Notes under the pieces: model-generated | The model's input: the letters and a program-made list of their open reading frames with translations, nothing else | The model's database searches: none | What the model was told of the DNA's origin: nothing | Shown: in pieces, positions 5,354 to 35,772 of the stretch | Position numbering within the stretch: position 1 is the stretch's first letter | Layout of the letters: each line of letters starts with the position of its first letter | Assembly (NCBI GenBank): GCA_013387205.1 | Contig: WARV01000014.1 | Location: 1-41,887, forward strand | DNA: 41,887 nt | Reading direction: 5' to 3' | DNA from: Patescibacteria group bacterium | GTDB taxonomy: Bacteria > Patescibacteriota > Doudnabacteria > UBA920 | Position numbers and translations under genes: made by a program

Positions 5354-5455
5354 ACCAATCTACAAATCCATACTAATAATAACTAATGACAACTAATTCC
5401 TTCTTTGCACGCATTAGTTGTCATTGGTAATATTCGTATGCATTAGTTTATTGGT
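5354..5455. repeat. ACCAAT/ATTGGT palindromic element, copy 1
   Basis: A 102-nt element bounded by ACCAAT and ATTGGT, with a central hairpin of AATGACAACTAAT (5385-5397) against ATTAGTTGTCATT (5413-5425). An inverted, closely similar copy lies at 26604-26704. It fills the gap between mrdA and folD. Confidence 0.75.
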
Positions 5456-17494: not shown

Positions 17495-17523
17495 AGTATG
17501 CCAATAATCCAAAATTATGTCAA
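17495..17523 (-). promoter_or_regulatory. Near-consensus promoter of the JAMM-type gene
   Basis: On the minus strand TTGACA (17523-17518) is followed after 17 nt by CATACT (17500-17495). The -35 box overlaps the start codon of divergent miaA. The ribosome binding site AAGGAGGG lies a few bases before the ATG at 17467. Confidence 0.75.
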
Positions 17524-18470
17524 CAATAGATAAAATTTTAGTAATTGTCGGTCCGACATCGTCCGGCAAATCGGAACTGGCGGTCAAGCTTGCAAAGCGT
17601 TTTAAAGGCGAAATAATTTCCGCAGACAGCAGGCAGGTTTACAGAGACATGAACTTAGGAACCGGCAAGGTTGAAGGAAAATGGAAATTTTGTAAAAACC
17701 GCGGCCGCGGTTTTTACAAAACGAAAGTATACGTTTACAAAAACACCCCCCACTATTTAATTGATTTTGCCAATCCAAAGAAACAATATTCCGTATCGCA
17801 ATTCCAAAAACAGGCAAAAAAAACGATTGCGGATATTTTTAAGCGCGGCCGCTTGCCAATAATCTGCGGCGGCACCGGACATTTTATCGACGCGGTTGTT
17901 TATAACCAGAACTTGCCGGAAGTTCCGCCCAACCCTACACTCCGCAAAGAATTGGACAAGCAAAGCAACGAACAATTACTTGAATATTTAAAACAGCTCG
18001 ATCCTGACAGAGCCTCTGTTATAGATTGGCACAACAAGCGCCGTTTAATCCGCGCTTTGGAAATTATTATCACTACAGGCAAGCCCGTTCCGCCTGTAGG
18101 GGCGGATACTATCCGCCCTCTACAATATGATGTATTATGGCTCGGCATCAATCTTCCCCAAGACGATCTTTATAAAAAAATCGACAAGCGTTTAAAGCAA
18201 AGGCTAAAGGCCGGAATGATAAAAGAAGTCCAAAAATTGCGCAAGCAGGGGTTATCGTGGAAAAGATTGGATGATTTTGGATTGGAATACAGATACATAT
18301 CGCTTTATCTGCAAAAAAAATTATCTTACGATGAAATGTTTACCCAGCTCTCTTACGCGATTAAGCACTACTCCAAACGCCAGCTGACCTGGTGGAAAAG
18401 GAATAAAGAAATAAATTGGATTAGTAATTATAAACAAGCAGCGGGCACGGTTGCAAAATTTTTTAAATGA
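17517..18470 (+). CDS. miaA: tRNA dimethylallyltransferase, with two palindrome-derived inserts
   Basis: A 317-residue enzyme that transfers the isopentenyl group of DMAPP to A37 of tRNAs reading UNN codons. The P-loop is GPTSSGKSE (12-20). ISADSRQVYRDMNLGTGK and ICGGTGHFIDAV are diagnostic, and the C-terminal KHYSKRQLTWWKR matches the family. Two segments look inserted: residues 58-68 (FCKNRGRGFYK), encoded by a perfect 34-nt palindrome, and residues about 193-201 (PVGADTIRP), encoded by a GTAG-type REP. Both lie in loops between conserved motifs and keep the frame open. No methylthiotransferase gene is nearby. Confidence 0.96.
   Translation: MSTIDKILVIVGPTSSGKSELAVKLAKRFKGEIISADSRQVYRDMNLGTGKVEGKWKFCKNRGRGFYKTKVYVYKNTPHYLIDFANPKKQYSVSQFQKQAKKTIADIFKRGRLPIICGGTGHFIDAVVYNQNLPEVPPNPTLRKELDKQSNEQLLEYLKQLDPDRASVIDWHNKRRLIRALEIIITTGKPVPPVGADTIRPLQYDVLWLGINLPQDDLYKKIDKRLKQRLKAGMIKEVQKLRKQGLSWKRLDDFGLEYRYISLYLQKKLSYDEMFTQLSYAIKHYSKRQLTWWKRNKEINWISNYKQAAGTVAKFFK
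17688..17721. repeat. Perfect 34-nt palindrome inside miaA
   Basis: The left arm TTTTGTAAAAACCGCGG (17688-17704) is followed directly by its exact complement (17705-17721). It encodes residues 58-68 and starts on a codon boundary. Being palindromic, it encodes the same peptide on the opposite strand. Confidence 0.9.
18095..18124 (+). repeat. REP-type palindrome inside miaA
   Basis: TGTAG followed by GGGCGGAT-act-ATCCGCCC and then TCTACA. The 5' GTAG plus hairpin layout is that of REP sequences recognised by RAYT transposases. It is read in frame as Val-Gly-Ala-Asp-Thr-Ile-Arg-Pro. Confidence 0.85.
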
Positions 18471-20064: not shown

Positions 20065-21636
20065 TTACCCTTGCATTTTTTTCCTAAGCAAATCGTTTAT
20101 TACAGAAGGATTACCTTTTCCCTTTAATTCCTTCATTGCCTGACCGACTAAGAAGCCGAAAGATTTTTCCGCCCCGGCTTTAAAATCCGCTACGGCTTTG
20201 GGATTATCGGCAACCACTTTATCAATTACCGAAGATATCGCTCCTTCATCGCTAACCTGGTGCAATCCTAAATCTTCCACAATACTGGACGGCTCGCCGC
20301 CTTTTTCAAACATCACCTTAAACACCTGCTTGGCCGCGCTGCTAGAAATTTTTCCTTGTTGGATTAGTTTCATCAGTTCCGCCAAATTTTCCGCAACCAC
20401 ATTGGACTCCTGCGGATTCATCCCCGACCCATTAAGCAAAGCACTAAAATCCTGCAAGCACCAGTTGGCCGCGCTCTTAATAAGCTGGTTGCGGTCAAGA
20501 CCTTGCTCCTGCGTCATCCATTCGTCAATTTCACTGACCACTTCCTCAAAGTAGCAGGCCATTTCTTTCCAATTGATCAAATTCTCAACATCAATGGCAG
20601 GCAAACCATATTCTTCCAAAAATCTCTTTCTTTTTTGCGATGGCAATTCAGGCAAGCTGCGTTTGAGTTCGCTTAAATATTCCTGTGTAAATTGCAGAAC
20701 CGGCAAATCCGGATCCGGGAAGTAGCGATAGTCATTTGCCTCTTCTTTTGATCTCTGTTCCACTGTCACGCCCTGCTTTTCATTCCAGCCCATTGTCACC
20801 TGCTTGGGTATGCCACCTTCTTTCAAAATTTCCGTCTGACGGGCGATTTCGTAATTAATCGCAGCCTCGGCAAATTTGAAAGAGTTAATGTTCTTTACTT
20901 CAACTTTATATTTGGGCAAAGTGGTTTCGCCAGGCTTGCGCACGGAAATATTTGGCTCAACGCGCATGGTGCCTTTTTCCATATCAGCACTAGACGCTCC
21001 GACATAGCGGACAATATTTCTAAGCTCCTGCAAAAAGACGCGTGCCTCTTCCCCGCTCTCTATCTCCGGTTCAGTTACGATTTCCAAAAGAGCACAACCG
21101 GCGCGGTTATAATCTACCAAACTATAAGGTAATCCGTCAGGATGCACATTCTTTCCCGCGTCTTCTTCTAAATGAGCGCGTGTAATGCCAATACGTTTAA
21201 TGTGTTTTCCTGTCGGGGAAGATCCCATCTTCCCCTCTTCGGACTGGCGGATAAGATCCGCCCCTACATCGCTGATATCACCCAATATCTCAATATCCAA
21301 ATACCCATTTTTCGAAATCGGTTGGTCATACTGCGAAATTTGGTAGCCCTTTGGCAAATCCGGATAAAAATAATGCTTGCGGTCGAACTTGGACCATTCG
21401 TCAATCTGGCAATTCAAAGCCAGGCCAACCAAAGCAGCAAGCCTTATTGCCTCTTTATTCGCAACAGGCAAAGTTCCCGGCTGAGCCGTGACAATCTCAT
21501 CTATGTTAGTATTCGGATTCGTCTCGTCCGGATTAAACGGGGCAGGGCTGAACATCTTAGACTTGGTAGCAAGCTCTACATGTATCTCAAACCCAATCAC
21601 CGGCTTGTATTCATTTGATGGCTCAAAGTTTTTCAT
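20065..21636 (-). CDS. gatB: Asp/Glu-tRNA amidotransferase subunit B
   Basis: A 523-residue kinase/transamidase subunit of GatCAB, which makes Gln-tRNA-Gln and/or Asn-tRNA-Asn from mischarged precursors. Signatures are GFEIHVELATKSKMFS, PGTLPVANKEAI, DRKHYFYPDLPKGYQISQ, RAHLEEDAGKNVH and the C-terminal YqeY-like tail domain (VGQAMKELKGKGNPSVINDLL). Residues about 122-142 (DVGADLIR...GKMGSSPTG) are extra relative to the family. They are encoded by a pair of REP-type palindromes inserted just before the conserved KRIGITRAHLEEDAGK motif. The frame is intact. Confidence 0.97.
   Translation of the reverse strand: MKNFEPSNEYKPVIGFEIHVELATKSKMFSPAPFNPDETNPNTNIDEIVTAQPGTLPVANKEAIRLAALVGLALNCQIDEWSKFDRKHYFYPDLPKGYQISQYDQPISKNGYLDIEILGDISDVGADLIRQSEEGKMGSSPTGKHIKRIGITRAHLEEDAGKNVHPDGLPYSLVDYNRAGCALLEIVTEPEIESGEEARVFLQELRNIVRYVGASSADMEKGTMRVEPNISVRKPGETTLPKYKVEVKNINSFKFAEAAINYEIARQTEILKEGGIPKQVTMGWNEKQGVTVEQRSKEEANDYRYFPDPDLPVLQFTQEYLSELKRSLPELPSQKRKRFLEEYGLPAIDVENLINWKEMACYFEEVVSEIDEWMTQEQGLDRNQLIKSAANWCLQDFSALLNGSGMNPQESNVVAENLAELMKLIQQGKISSSAAKQVFKVMFEKGGEPSSIVEDLGLHQVSDEGAISSVIDKVVADNPKAVADFKAGAEKSFGFLVGQAMKELKGKGNPSVINDLLRKKMQG
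21211..21268. repeat. Inverted pair of REP palindromes inside gatB
   Basis: Plus strand: GTCGGGGAAGAT-ccc-ATCTTCCCC, a 10-nt spacer, then GGCGGAT-aag-ATCCGCC-CCTACA. The second unit is GTAG-GGGCGGAT... on the minus strand. Two convergent REPs with a short spacer resemble a bacterial interspersed mosaic element (BIME). Confidence 0.8.
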
Positions 21637-26603: not shown

Positions 26604-26704
26604 ACCAATCTGCTAATGTAATGAATATTACCAATGACAACTAATGCGTACTAAGGTAGCATTAGTTGTCATTAGTTATTATTAGTATGGATTCGTAGAT
26701 TAGT
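26604..26704. repeat. ACCAAT/ATTGGT palindromic element, copy 2 (inverted)
   Basis: AATGACAACTAATGC (26633-26647) pairs with GCATTAGTTGTCATT (26659-26673). The flanking ATTAGTATGGATTCGTAGATTAGT is the reverse complement of the left end of the copy at 5354-5455. The two copies are therefore the same element in opposite orientation. Confidence 0.8.
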
Positions 26705-28842: not shown

Positions 28843-28867
28843 TGTAGGGGAAGATCCCATCTTCCCT
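28843..28867 (+). repeat. REP-type palindrome upstream of the RAYT gene
   Basis: TGTAG then GGGAAGAT-ccc-ATCTTCCC. It lies in the 84-nt gap between htpX and the transposase gene, just before its promoter. It has the same loop and stem as the first half of the pair inside gatB. Confidence 0.85.
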
Positions 28868-28910: not shown

Positions 28911-29402
28911 ATGCAAACACGAAAACAAAATAGGTTGGTTAATTACGACTATTCCACGCCAGGATACTATTTTGTAACCGCATGTGTTCAGAATCGCACA
29001 TGCTGTTTTGGCAATATAGTCAACAATAAAATTATACTGAACAACCTTGGAAAAATCATAGAACAAGCTTGGGCAGACACACCAAACCATTATCAAAATG
29101 CAACCATTGATCCTGTTTATATTATTATGCCGAATCATTTTCACGGAATTGTAATAATTACACCTCCGCGGGCGGATGAGATCCGCCCCTACACCAGTCT
29201 TAATACTATAATTGGATCTTTTAAACGCAAAGCTTCCAATTTAATCCACCAATCCGGTTTTCCTAATTTTCAATGGCAAAAATCTTTCTTCGACCACGTA
29301 ATCCGTAAAGACGAATCGCTGGAAAAAATCCGGGAATACATACAAAACAATCCTTTAAAATGGGAATTGGACAAGAATAACCCTTCCAACCTATGGATGT
29401 AG
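28911..29402 (+). CDS. REP-associated tyrosine transposase (Y1 HUH, RAYT)
   Basis: A 163-residue Y1_Tnp-family single-strand transposase. The N-terminal strand YYFVTACVQNRTCCFG, the metal-binding His76-x-His78 (MPNHFHGIVII) and the catalytic Tyr143 (EKIREYIQNNPLKW) are all present, so it looks active. RAYTs cut at REP hairpins next to a GTAG/GTGG tetranucleotide and are usually single-copy. REPs with GTAG lie upstream (28843) and overlap its stop codon (29399). A third lies inside the gene, encoding Ala88-Asp-Glu-Ile-Arg-Pro just after the HUH strand. Length is typical. It is the probable driver of the REP family here. Confidence 0.92.
   Translation: MQTRKQNRLVNYDYSTPGYYFVTACVQNRTCCFGNIVNNKIILNNLGKIIEQAWADTPNHYQNATIDPVYIIMPNHFHGIVIITPPRADEIRPYTSLNTIIGSFKRKASNLIHQSGFPNFQWQKSFFDHVIRKDESLEKIREYIQNNPLKWELDKNNPSNLWM
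29170..29193 (-). repeat. REP-type palindrome inside the RAYT gene
   Basis: GGGCGGAT-gag-ATCCGCCC-CTACA on the plus strand, so GTAG is 5' on the minus strand. It is read in frame as Ala-Asp-Glu-Ile-Arg-Pro-Tyr. Confidence 0.85.
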
Positions 29403-30523: not shown

Positions 30524-33067
30524 ATGACAAACTTTACTTACATTTTAGAAAGGCTTTCAAGCCGCGCGAAAAACGCGCTGATTATGGCTCAGCTGGTTTC
30601 CGAGGAATTAAAGCACGACCATATCGGCACTGAGCATTTGCTTTTTGGAGTCATCTCTGAAAAGAGTTCTTTTGCCGCGGAAATTTTGACCAAGACCAAG
30701 CTGACCGCGGACACGGTCAAGCTGGAACTGGCTTCCGTAAACAGCAATAATACCGTTTCCAACTGGAAGCCGGTTTTGTCCGAAAACCTGAAATCCGTAA
30801 TTGAAAAATCCGCCATTGTCGCCAGCCAATACGGCTACCAGTTCATCGGCACCGAGCATTTCCTCTACGGGTTATTGTCCGGCAACCAAAACAGGGCCAA
30901 GGTAATCCTTTCCAAGCTTGGTGTGGACATTTTTGAGCTTGAACAAAACCTGATTGGTGTTTTTGAAAACATCTCCAAATTCCCGGAAATGCCCGGTGAA
31001 GGCGTTTCTCCCCAGCCAATGGACAACGGACCAGCCTCGTCAGGCAGCCCCAGGCTCGACAATAAAAAAGGCGGGCTCTTGGAATACTTTACGACAGATG
31101 TCACCAAGCGGGCCAAAGACGGGCTTATTGATCCGGTCATTGGCAGGAAAACTGAAATTGAAAGATTAATTTCTATTTTAAACAGGCGCACCAAGAATAA
31201 CCCCATTCTAATCGGCGAAGCCGGAGTCGGAAAAACTGCTATTGTCGAAGGTTTGGCTTTAGCCATTGCCAAGCGCGAAGTCCCCGATTCCCTTTTGGAT
31301 AAAAAAATCTTAAGCCTGGATTTGGCATTAATTGTTGCCGGCAGCATGTTTCGCGGCGAATTCGAAAACCGCTTAAAGCAGATTATTGAAGAAGTCAAAG
31401 ACAACAAGAATGTCATTTTGTTCATTGACGAGCTCCATACCATGGTAGGCGCAGGCGCGACTACGGGCTCGCTTGATGCGGCCAACATTTTAAAACCTGC
31501 TTTGGCCAGAGGCGAGCTTAGGGCCATTGGTGCAACAACTTTGTCCGAATACAAAAAATACATAGAAGCGGATGCGGCTTTAGAACGCAGGTTCCAGCCA
31601 ATATTGGTGGATGAGCCGAGCAAGGAAGAAACTGTGGAAATATTAAAAGGCTTAAAGCCCAACTACGAAAAGCACCACAACGTAACCATTACTGACGAAG
31701 CAATAAAATCGGCCGTCGAGCTTTCCTCCCGCTACATCCAGGACCGCTTTTTGCCTGACAAAGCAGTGGACTTAATAGATGAAACCGCGGCATTTTTGCG
31801 CAGCATCAACAGCAACAGCAAACTTTTGCGCGCTACGAAGAAGATAGAAGCCGACCTTTTGTCTTTGGAAGAAGAGAAAACCAAAGCGGTTTTAGCGCAG
31901 GATTTTACCACAGCATTGCACTTAAGGGCACAGGAAGAAAAATTGCTCAAACAGAAGAACGAACTGTCCAAGAGTTTAGCTGTGGAAACCCAGACCACAA
32001 AGCACGTTATCGGCTCTGAAGATATTGCCCACACCGTTTCCATGATGACTAAAATCCCCTTGTCAAAAGTTGCCAAAACCGAAATTGGCAAGCTGGCTAA
32101 TTTGGACAAGATTTTGAAAAACAAGATTATCGGCCAGGATGAAGCAGTGGAAGAAGTCGCCAAATCCATAAGGCGCTCACGGGCTGGCATTACTGATCCA
32201 AGAAGGCCGCTTGGTTCGTTCATCTTTTTGGGACCGACCGGTGTCGGCAAAACCGAAACCGCCAAAATTTTGGCATCTGAAGTTTTTGAAGACGAAGATG
32301 CCCTTATCCGCGTGGACATGTCGGAATTCATGGAAAGGCATAATGTGGCGCGGCTCATTGGCGCCCCAGCCGGTTACGTAGGCTACGAAGAAGGCGGCAG
32401 GCTGACTGAAGCGGTCAGGAGAAAACCTTACGCCGTGGTCTTGTTCGATGAAATTGAAAAAGCCAACCCGGACGTGTTTAACATCTTGCTGCAAATTTTG
32501 GAAGACGGGCAGCTGACTGACGCAGCCGGCAAAAAAGTGAATTTCCGTAACACTATTGTCATAATGACATCCAATTTGGGCATGCAGGAACTTACCACCC
32601 AGGCAGCCAAAATCGGCTTTGCGGAACAAACCGAAGAAGAGACCGACCAAAAGTCAAAACTGGAAAAGGAATACGAAAATATCAAAGGCACGGTACTGGA
32701 TACTTTAAAGACCGAATTCCGTCCGGAATTTTTGAACAGGATAGACAAAATTATTGTCTTTAAGCCTTTGGGATTAGAAGAACTGAAGAAAATCACCCAG
32801 CTGCAAATTTCTTATTTGCAGGAAAGGCTGCTGGCCCAAGAAGTCCAGTTTACCGTCAACCCGGCTGTGATTAAATTCATCACTGATAAAAGTTTCGATC
32901 CTGCCCAGGGAGCCAGATTTGTCAGAAAAAACATCCAAGACTTTTTGGAAGATCCGCTGGCGGAAAAAATAATTTCCGGCGGAGCTAAGGAAGGCATGGC
33001 AATAACGGCAGACGTGAAAAAAGACAAAATTGTCTTTACCGTGGAAAAACAACCAGTTCCTGCGTAA
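30524..33067 (+). CDS. clpC: ClpC-type AAA+ unfoldase (Clp ATP-binding subunit)
   Basis: An 847-residue Hsp100 unfoldase. The double Clp-N domain occupies about 1-150. AAA-1 has GEAGVGKTAIVEG and LFIDELHTMVGAG. A short middle region with a UVR-like segment (TKAVLAQDFTTALHLRAQEEKL) marks ClpC rather than ClpB. AAA-2 has GPTGVGKTETAK and VVLFDEIEKANPDVFN. The ClpP-docking loop is AKIGFAEQ, so it should feed the ClpP protease. clpP is not in this window. The long structured 5' leader suggests post-transcriptional control. Identification is certain. Confidence 0.96.
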   Translation: MTNFTYILERLSSRAKNALIMAQLVSEELKHDHIGTEHLLFGVISEKSSFAAEILTKTKLTADTVKLELASVNSNNTVSNWKPVLSENLKSVIEKSAIVASQYGYQFIGTEHFLYGLLSGNQNRAKVILSKLGVDIFELEQNLIGVFENISKFPEMPGEGVSPQPMDNGPASSGSPRLDNKKGGLLEYFTTDVTKRAKDGLIDPVIGRKTEIERLISILNRRTKNNPILIGEAGVGKTAIVEGLALAIAKREVPDSLLDKKILSLDLALIVAGSMFRGEFENRLKQIIEEVKDNKNVILFIDELHTMVGAGATTGSLDAANILKPALARGELRAIGATTLSEYKKYIEADAALERRFQPILVDEPSKEETVEILKGLKPNYEKHHNVTITDEAIKSAVELSSRYIQDRFLPDKAVDLIDETAAFLRSINSNSKLLRATKKIEADLLSLEEEKTKAVLAQDFTTALHLRAQEEKLLKQKNELSKSLAVETQTTKHVIGSEDIAHTVSMMTKIPLSKVAKTEIGKLANLDKILKNKIIGQDEAVEEVAKSIRRSRAGITDPRRPLGSFIFLGPTGVGKTETAKILASEVFEDEDALIRVDMSEFMERHNVARLIGAPAGYVGYEEGGRLTEAVRRKPYAVVLFDEIEKANPDVFNILLQILEDGQLTDAAGKKVNFRNTIVIMTSNLGMQELTTQAAKIGFAEQTEEETDQKSKLEKEYENIKGTVLDTLKTEFRPEFLNRIDKIIVFKPLGLEELKKITQLQISYLQERLLAQEVQFTVNPAVIKFITDKSFDPAQGARFVRKNIQDFLEDPLAEKIISGGAKEGMAITADVKKDKIVFTVEKQPVPA

Positions 33068-33145: not shown

Positions 33146-33169
33146 TGTAGGGGCGGATATTATCCGCCC
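33146..33169 (+). repeat. REP-type palindrome downstream of clpC
   Basis: TGTAG then GGGCGGAT-att-ATCCGCCC, the same stem as the REPs in miaA, gatB and the RAYT gene, followed by TTTTATT. Confidence 0.88.
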
Positions 33170-33886: not shown

Positions 33887-34612
33887 ATGAACCTTTTTAG
33901 AGACTTGGTAAGTCCGTTTGCAACTGACATTAAAAATTTATTTTTAGACACAATTTTTCCAATAACCTGCCTGGTATGCAAAAAGGAGGGCCGGTTTATT
34001 TGCATTGACTGCAAAATGGGATTAAAGCGGCAAAGCAGCCAGCACTGCATTATGTGCGAAGGTAAATCCCCTTTTGGCTTTACCCATTCAGGCTGCCAAA
34101 CTCCTTTTGGCGCGGATGGGTTATTTTCTATTTTTGATTATCACGATGAAAACATTGCCAAAATAATCATCAATGGGAAATATGGATTTTTGCCAGGAGT
34201 GTTTAAGGAACTGGGAATAATTTTGGCCAGTGAAATAAAAAATAACAATCAGTTGATGGATAAAAACACATATTTGGTGCCAATCCCCCTTTCTAAACCT
34301 AGGAAACGCTGGCGCGGGTTCAACCAAGCGGAAATTTTATGCAAAACAATTTCCAAAGAACTGAATATGCCGTATGGCGATTTGCTCGTTAGGGCAAAAT
34401 CAACAAAGACACAAAAAGATTTGAAAAAGGAAGAACGGATAAAAAACGTGGAGGGGTGTTTTAAGCTTAAAAAAGGCATCAACCCTCACGGCGCAAATAT
34501 TATATTAATTGATGACGTAGTAACTACCGGCAGCACCCTGCTTGAAGCTGTCAAAGTCCTAAAAAGAAACGGCGCCGCAAAAGTCTGGTGCCTGACAGTT
34601 GCCAGGGATTGA
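33887..34612 (+). CDS. comF: ComF-family phosphoribosyltransferase-like protein
   Basis: A 241-residue protein. The N-terminal double zinc ribbon is CLVCKKEGRFICIDC and CIMCEGKSPFGFTHSGC. The type I phosphoribosyltransferase domain ends with the PRPP loop ILIDDVVTTGSTLLEAV, and RGFNQAEILCKTISKEL is the typical ComF segment. In naturally competent bacteria ComF acts with single-stranded DNA after uptake. DNA uptake fits the lifestyle proposed for these bacteria, but no other competence gene is in the window. Family assignment is firm. Confidence 0.93.
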   Translation: MNLFRDLVSPFATDIKNLFLDTIFPITCLVCKKEGRFICIDCKMGLKRQSSQHCIMCEGKSPFGFTHSGCQTPFGADGLFSIFDYHDENIAKIIINGKYGFLPGVFKELGIILASEIKNNNQLMDKNTYLVPIPLSKPRKRWRGFNQAEILCKTISKELNMPYGDLLVRAKSTKTQKDLKKEERIKNVEGCFKLKKGINPHGANIILIDDVVTTGSTLLEAVKVLKRNGAAKVWCLTVARD

Positions 34613-34614
34613 CC

Positions 34615-34648
34615 CCTCACTGTCCAATTCTATAGAATTGGACAGTGA
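34615..34648. repeat. CCAATTCTATAGAATTGG palindrome, copy 1
   Basis: A perfect palindrome of about 34 nt: CTCACTGTCC-AATTCTATAGAATT-GGACAGTGAG. It lies between the converging ends of comF and the arsR-type gene. It can act as a terminator stem or as a regulator-binding site. Confidence 0.8.
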
Positions 34649-34649
34649 G

Positions 34650-34937: not shown

Positions 34938-34963
34938 CCGGTGTCCAATTCTATAGAATTGGA
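34938..34963. repeat. CCAATTCTATAGAATTGG palindrome, copy 2
   Basis: GTGTCCAATT-ctatag-AATTGGACAC, a perfect 26-nt palindrome directly upstream of the ArsR-type gene start (34931) and just downstream of the 251-aa gene. Its position suits an operator of the regulator or a terminator. Confidence 0.75.
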
Positions 34964-34978
34964 CACATGATAATTTAA

Positions 34979-35734
34979 TTATTCTTTTAAATGCAGATAT
35001 TTAATATTCAAAATATCTATCCTATCTATTAATTCTTTTTGTATCACCAGCGCATTGGATATAAACTTGTCGATTTTATCGTTTCGTTCCAGCTTGCGAA
35101 ATGACTCTATGCATCTTTGCAGCGAAGCTAATGACAAAATATATCCAATTCTATCAGTCCGCCATAAAAAATCCTCTTTTGTGCTGTAAAAATCATCATT
35201 TGGTTCATTGCTAGCAAATACGATTTTCCCAGAAACTGGCAAACAATTGGTCGAAATCCTAAACAAATTTAGATCTTTTGTCTTTTCATATTCCTCACTC
35301 GCAACTACAAGAACGTCCTGGCTCCATTTTTTTGCCATATGATATAATTTATCGCTTTCCAGTCTCTTCTCGTTAGGGTCTTCGTATTCTTCCATTTCTT
35401 TTTGAAGCTGCTGCCGTTCGAACCACCTTGACTTGGCAATATACGATTCATCAGGATCCCCAAAAAGCGTTTCTTCAAATATCGCCATTTCATGCATCCT
35501 GTTAGCATATTCTGGATTAGTTCTCATATTGTATTCAATTTTTTCCTGAATCTCTTTTTCTCTTTCTTTCTCCCGTTTTTCCCAATATTTTTCATCCAAA
35601 GTACCTTTGAAATATTCCTCGAAATTATCGTACCACATTGAACGAAATCCGGGATTATACATAAAATACGTATATTCAAACTCCCTCATTACATCTTTTT
35701 CTTCTGGAGTTAAATTTTTATCAGAATTCCACAT
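34979..35734 (-). CDS. Charged coiled-coil protein of unknown function (251 aa)
   Basis: A 251-residue soluble protein, not recognised. Its centre (about 45-130) is a highly charged helical stretch (EKYWEKREKEREKEIQEKIE and similar), likely coiled coil. The C-terminal third (WRTDRIGYILSLASLQRCIESFRKLERNDKID) looks globular and helical. No signal peptide or catalytic motif was seen. It is upstream of the ArsR-type gene on the same strand with a 47-nt gap, and both genes are preceded by the same palindrome, so they may be co-regulated. Confidence 0.7.
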   Translation of the reverse strand: MWNSDKNLTPEEKDVMREFEYTYFMYNPGFRSMWYDNFEEYFKGTLDEKYWEKREKEREKEIQEKIEYNMRTNPEYANRMHEMAIFEETLFGDPDESYIAKSRWFERQQLQKEMEEYEDPNEKRLESDKLYHMAKKWSQDVLVVASEEYEKTKDLNLFRISTNCLPVSGKIVFASNEPNDDFYSTKEDFLWRTDRIGYILSLASLQRCIESFRKLERNDKIDKFISNALVIQKELIDRIDILNIKYLHLKE

Positions 35735-35744
35735 TTATTTCGAC

Positions 35745-35772
35745 TATCCAATTCTATAGAATTGGATAGTGG
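35745..35772. repeat. CCAATTCTATAGAATTGG palindrome, copy 3
   Basis: ACTATCCAATT-ctatag-AATTGGATAGT, a perfect 28-nt palindrome just upstream of the 251-aa gene. Relative to the other copies the outer arm bases differ on both sides in a compensating way (TGTCC/GGACA versus TATCC/GGATA). Confidence 0.8.

Follow-up and report, generated by a model that had tools for sequence, protein, structure and literature searches.

Within the window, by which we mean the whole 41,887-nt stretch of DNA analysed here, the gene for subunit B of the Asp/Glu-tRNA amidotransferase contains two REP hairpins in opposite orientation. The gene, its REP pair and the related features of the window are as follows.

20065..21636 (−): gatB, Asp/Glu-tRNA amidotransferase subunit B, intact ORF of 523 aa (NCBIfam TIGR00133, 530 bits)
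21212..21267 (−): composite element in gatB, a convergent REP pair of 56 nt coding for VGADLIRQSEEGKMGSSPT, residues 124-142
21246..21267 (−): first REP of the pair in gene sense, CGGAT type with GTAG head, read GTA GGG GCG GAT CTT ATC CGC
21212..21234 (+): second REP of the pair, AAGAT type, head GTCG, pointing outward
18096..18123 (+): single closed REP (GTAG...CTAC) inside miaA (17517-18470, +), coding for VGADTIRPL in the same phase as the gatB copy
28844..28866 (+): AAGAT-type REP, 44 nt upstream of the transposase ORF, with the loop bases of the gatB copy
28911..29402 (+): RAYT-like Y1/HUH transposase ORF, 163 aa, HFH motif, Y at YIQNNP
29170..29192 (−): CGGAT REP within the transposase ORF, directly following the HUH motif, ADEIRPY in gene sense, same core phase
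33147..33169 (+): intergenic single CGGAT REP with a T-rich tail, downstream of ORF 30524-33067

The initial annotation had described a convergent REP hairpin pair with a 10-nt spacer inside gatB, and both the pair and its coordinates proved correct. The REPs read GTCGGGGAAGATCCCATCTTCCC (21212-21234, +) and GTAGGGGCGGATCTTATCCGCC (21267-21246, −). They form hairpins with three-base loops and stems of 9 bp (21215-21235) and 7 bp (21246-21262) that lie 10 nt apart with their heads outward, the GTCG head of the second REP being GTAG with one change. The folding z of the element is −4.4 as DNA and −2.8 as RNA. On the minus strand, which is the gene strand, the element follows GGT GAT ATC AGC GAT and reads GTA GGG GCG GAT CTT ATC CGC CAG TCC GAA GAG GGG AAG ATG GGA TCT TCC CCG AC, the last codon being completed by the A that precedes GGA AAA CAC. 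Between the KGYQI and EEDAGK motifs, GatB has 67 aa here versus 42-43 aa in most GatBs of the order. The earlier estimate of about 20 extra residues (about 122-142) holds for the REP pair, which codes for 19, but not for the whole excess over the empty site, which is 25 residues. A conserved loop of equal length in REP-free homologues was looked for, and most relatives have the short form. An assembly artefact was rejected in view of the intact ORF and of the recurrence of this element type across many genes and genomes.

The REP census was made by pattern searches of the genome and the loci found, and copies in an ORF of at least 150 aa were counted as genic. The 22-mer GTAGGGGCGGATNNNATCCGCC occurs in 19 exact copies in the 1.30 Mb genome, whose size and gene content suggest a Patescibacterium, compared with none for the reversed control. 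At up to three mismatches, there are 39 matches genome-wide (reversed control, 0) and four in the window, where 0.01 are expected. These controls reject chance hairpins. The partner (AAGAT) type GTAGGGGAAGATNNNATCTTCC has about eight copies. With 23 CGGAT and about eight AAGAT sites, imperfect palindromes in the range of 20-40 nt with GTAG at one end (GTCG in the second gatB REP), the elements form a dispersed multi-copy family of the GTAG REP superfamily. Thirteen of the 23 CGGAT sites lie in ORFs and ten are intergenic. In seven places the CGGAT and AAGAT types are combined into one and the same convergent composite, which measures 53 or 56 nt head to head and has a constant offset that differs by 3 nt. 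All seven are genic, in uvrA, gatB, a PHP/TIGR00375-like protein, an S74 chaperone domain protein (twice), a family 2 glycosyltransferase and a UvrD/PcrA-like helicase. Four single REPs closed by CTAC are also genic (twice in the transketolase gene tkt, once each in miaA and tgt), and one further single lies in the transposase ORF. Composites and singles differ in being genic or not (Fisher p = 0.007). As nearly all copies have a T directly before GTAG and an A directly after CTAC, the REP unit probably includes these flanking bases. Composites were found only in genes, unlike the intergenic CGGAT singles (33147-33169 and four further loci), which mostly lack the CTAC end, carry a TTT(T) tail and could serve as terminators.

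The genic copies are strongly biased towards one codon phase. Twelve of the 13 read GCG-GAT-NNN-ATC-CGC, encoding (V-G)-A-D-x-I-R, and only a degenerate copy (at C11) departs from this. The common phase noted initially for GatB (VGADLIR) and MiaA (VGADTIR, REP at 18096) thus extends to nearly the entire genic set. In sister genomes, the core stands in the same phase in gatB, folA (with one base changed) and the transposase gene of genome G009 and in atpH of G018; trmD of G018 is the exception. Taken together, the A-D-x-I-R phase is found in 16 of 18 genic copies (binomial p about 2e-6 if each phase has a chance of 1/3), two G009 copies near one ORF start (L338, L339) having been left out because this start is uncertain. 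When only the open frames of each element are counted (11 elements), p is about 5e-6; both values are weakened in so far as copies that share a gene (tkt, S74 protein) may depend on one another. At least two frames are open in every element, so that stop codons alone do not impose the phase. Part of the bias could come from the T-GTAG terminus falling at codon ends instead of from selection.

The transposase of the window scores above the Pfam Y1_Tnp cut-off, and its REP_Tyr_transpos match reaches 60 bits, under the NCBIfam RAYT cut-off of 80, so that it is linked to REP mobilisation by association. RAYT-like transposases of two genera (28911-29402, +, in this genome; L332, 1288-1788, −, in G009) carry an in-frame REP directly after the HUH motif, in the phase seen in host genes, and these sequences suggest a joint evolution of the REP family and its open frame. 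A plasmid-borne RAYT relative from Leptolinea has no REP at that place, indicating that RAYTs do not generally contain an in-frame REP. A more far-reaching reading is that the REP families here are adapted to life inside proteins, that element-level selection keeps one hydrophilic frame open, that the frame was fixed by carriage of a REP in the transposase ORF and that dimers spread only as protein-coding inserts. We regard this as conceivable, with the odds rather against it.

Comparison with relatives supports insertion at sites otherwise free of the element. For TKT, UvrA, the PHP-like protein, Tgt and the glycosyltransferase, at least one relative has nothing at the position of the insert, and others have a different filling there. 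MiaA and PcrA have relatives without the element, but loop lengths vary. Among the relatives, where loop flanks have diverged, no exact empty-site sequence near enough for reading junctions was found. The CGGAT REP type is present in only three of 49 genomes of the order, which suggests a recent gain. The exact 22-mer is also widespread in taxa outside the order, chiefly Clostridia, with six of 46 sites in ORFs of at least 150 aa, some of which look spurious (p = 0.0003 versus this genome). The mostly intergenic loci with exact copies of GTAGGGGCGGATNNNATCCGCC belong to Clostridia, SR1, Patescibacteria and Anaerolineaceae, a recurrence that suggests either wide horizontal spread or convergence.

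The gatB loop has repeatedly taken up unrelated palindromes in sister genomes. In the sister genus represented by G009 it contains a pair of another GTAG REP family (GTAGYYAGCCSATTTATSGGCT, 35 matches in G009), both heads outward. In the sisters G018 and G019 it contains a third palindrome family, of the TCTCCCCCAGAGGGGGAGA type, which is common to both and repeated in both genomes. Two more distant genomes, G036 and G033, have further palindromic inserts; the mobile origin of the G033 insert is unproven, as no second copy with up to three mismatches was found in the G033 genome. A single ancestral event was rejected, because a GatB tree built without the loop implies five changes, of which supported branches force at least three, and because the insert sequences differ. 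Housekeeping proteins of these genomes would thus gain mobile-element peptides repeatedly and in one preferred frame. A G000-type composite occupies a second site in G009 gatB, at residue 372 (VGADTIRPDDGKMVSSPT).

An AlphaFold model of GatB (28 sequences, mean pLDDT 81) agrees in fold with solved GatB chains. Residues 121-142 have pLDDT values below 50 and lack secondary structure, lying between strands 108-118 and 144-158. GatB of T. maritima has a much shorter turn at the position of the insert. The insert is thus predicted to be a disordered turn between two strands. Together with the intact ORF and the short loop of most relatives, this supports the initial proposal that an essential GatCAB gene absorbed a composite element.

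On this evidence, the gatB feature is very probably a mobile, GTAG-headed REP dimer that was inserted in frame, probably moved by a RAYT, and is apparently translated, tolerated in a putative surface loop and near neutral. The RAYT/IS200-like HUH transposase, of which the window holds one copy, would move the dimer as single-stranded hairpins. Once in frame, the REP pair is apparently translated with the host protein as a floppy extra loop. It may persist because the peptide VGADxIRPxxGKxxSSPT is open and hydrophilic and because the putative surface loop tolerates extra length. Selection would remove inserts in other phases or places, and on balance the insert probably makes little difference to GatCAB.

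The best of the remaining explanations sees in the insert a functional module of GatB that is under selection, for instance an extra contact to tRNA or a partner or a regulator at the mRNA level, instead of a tolerated parasite. The same loop is indeed longer in several lineages, but the inserts are unrelated in sequence, the same peptide occurs in unrelated enzymes, the loop is predicted to be disordered and most relatives do without it, so that we consider this improbable. Even less probable is that the insert is present in the mRNA and then skipped by the ribosome or spliced out, leaving a normal protein. Programmed bypassing is exemplified by the mitochondrial byp elements and T4 gene 60, and the RNA of the gatB element does form two strong hairpins as bypass elements do. 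However, an element that is skipped is free of the codon rule in its length, whereas the copies here fall into constant length classes (53/56 nt and 28 nt), keep one codon phase and contain no stop codon, all of which would be needless. Ordinary sequence drift in a merely variable loop can practically be dismissed, for although a few relatives hold loops of 45-53 aa without palindromes, the exact 22-mer family membership against a reversed control of zero and the recurrence of the partner hairpin at matching spacing in seven places refute it at gatB.

The preferred reading, a translated and tolerated REP dimer, has several known counterparts. BIMEs or REPINs of gamma-proteobacteria consist of two opposite REPs acting as a unit in genomes with a RAYT-like gene, and BIMEs are mainly extragenic. 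Seven opposite-orientation pairs and a RAYT-like gene are likewise found here; in contrast, all seven composites lie in ORFs. Intragenic REP dimers as such are already known. According to the main text of Di Nocera et al. 2013 (PMC3733652), GTAG/CGTC REPs and REP dimers occur within genes, dimers inside ORFs code for 20-30 aa, the hosts include uvrA and a UvrD-type helicase, and the REPs are associated with RAYTs. GTAG heads, opposite-orientation hairpin pairs, dimers in ORFs, uvrA and UvrD-type hosts and a putative RAYT association are shared with our elements. In that account, most REPs are intergenic and the sole same-site case is recB in two Xanthomonas, whereas here 13 of 23 are genic, 12 of them in one phase, and several unrelated families occupy one loop. 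No fixed reading phase was found in the main text of PMC3733652, which does not mention gatB. The classic parallel is provided by the Rickettsia palindromic elements (Ogata 2000, as reviewed in PMC2229807 and PMC10969869), in-frame palindromes of 105-146 bp in conserved proteins that encode a conserved peptide and are apparently tolerated. The likeness to our elements concerns the way of working, in-frame insertion into conserved proteins with a constant encoded peptide; the units here are 28-56 nt long, have GTAG heads and go with a RAYT-like gene. A literature search of partial coverage found no reports of intragenic REP elements in small-genome lineages like this one. New are the phase bias, the shared gatB loop and a RAYT that carries its own REP in the same frame.

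Bacteria with tiny genomes would accordingly keep adding mobile-element peptides to core enzymes of translation, repair and metabolism at repeatable permissive loops, a natural insertion scanning of essential proteins. Odd loops in proteins from such genomes may be mobile DNA, which is a warning for their interpretation. Moreover, the strong frame signal makes this a system in which it can be tested how REPs move and why they persist.

Further palindromes accompany these elements. The G009 REP family is mostly intergenic, with genic copies in a Mur ligase, GlpX, a LigT-like protein and methionyl-tRNA synthetase, several of which read ADKSANY. In the present genome, a second in-frame two-hairpin element encodes STTPxANAATPP at only two sites, in tkt and the glycosyltransferase gene (L001, L015), both of which also carry CGGAT elements. 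A third palindrome, CKNRGR(G/D)FYK, is perfect over 34 nt in miaA (17688-17721, FCKNRGRGFYK), and a near copy ends the same glycosyltransferase (L015, around 2210-2245, VCKNRGRDFYK). A MITE-like 82-nt inverted repeat occurs in the window at 5354-5435 and 26623-26704 (90% alike). Finally, the TCCAATTCTATAGAATTGGA palindrome is present in three copies (34616-34649, 34941-34966 and 35743-35770) between and around ORFs 33887-34612 and 34979-35734.
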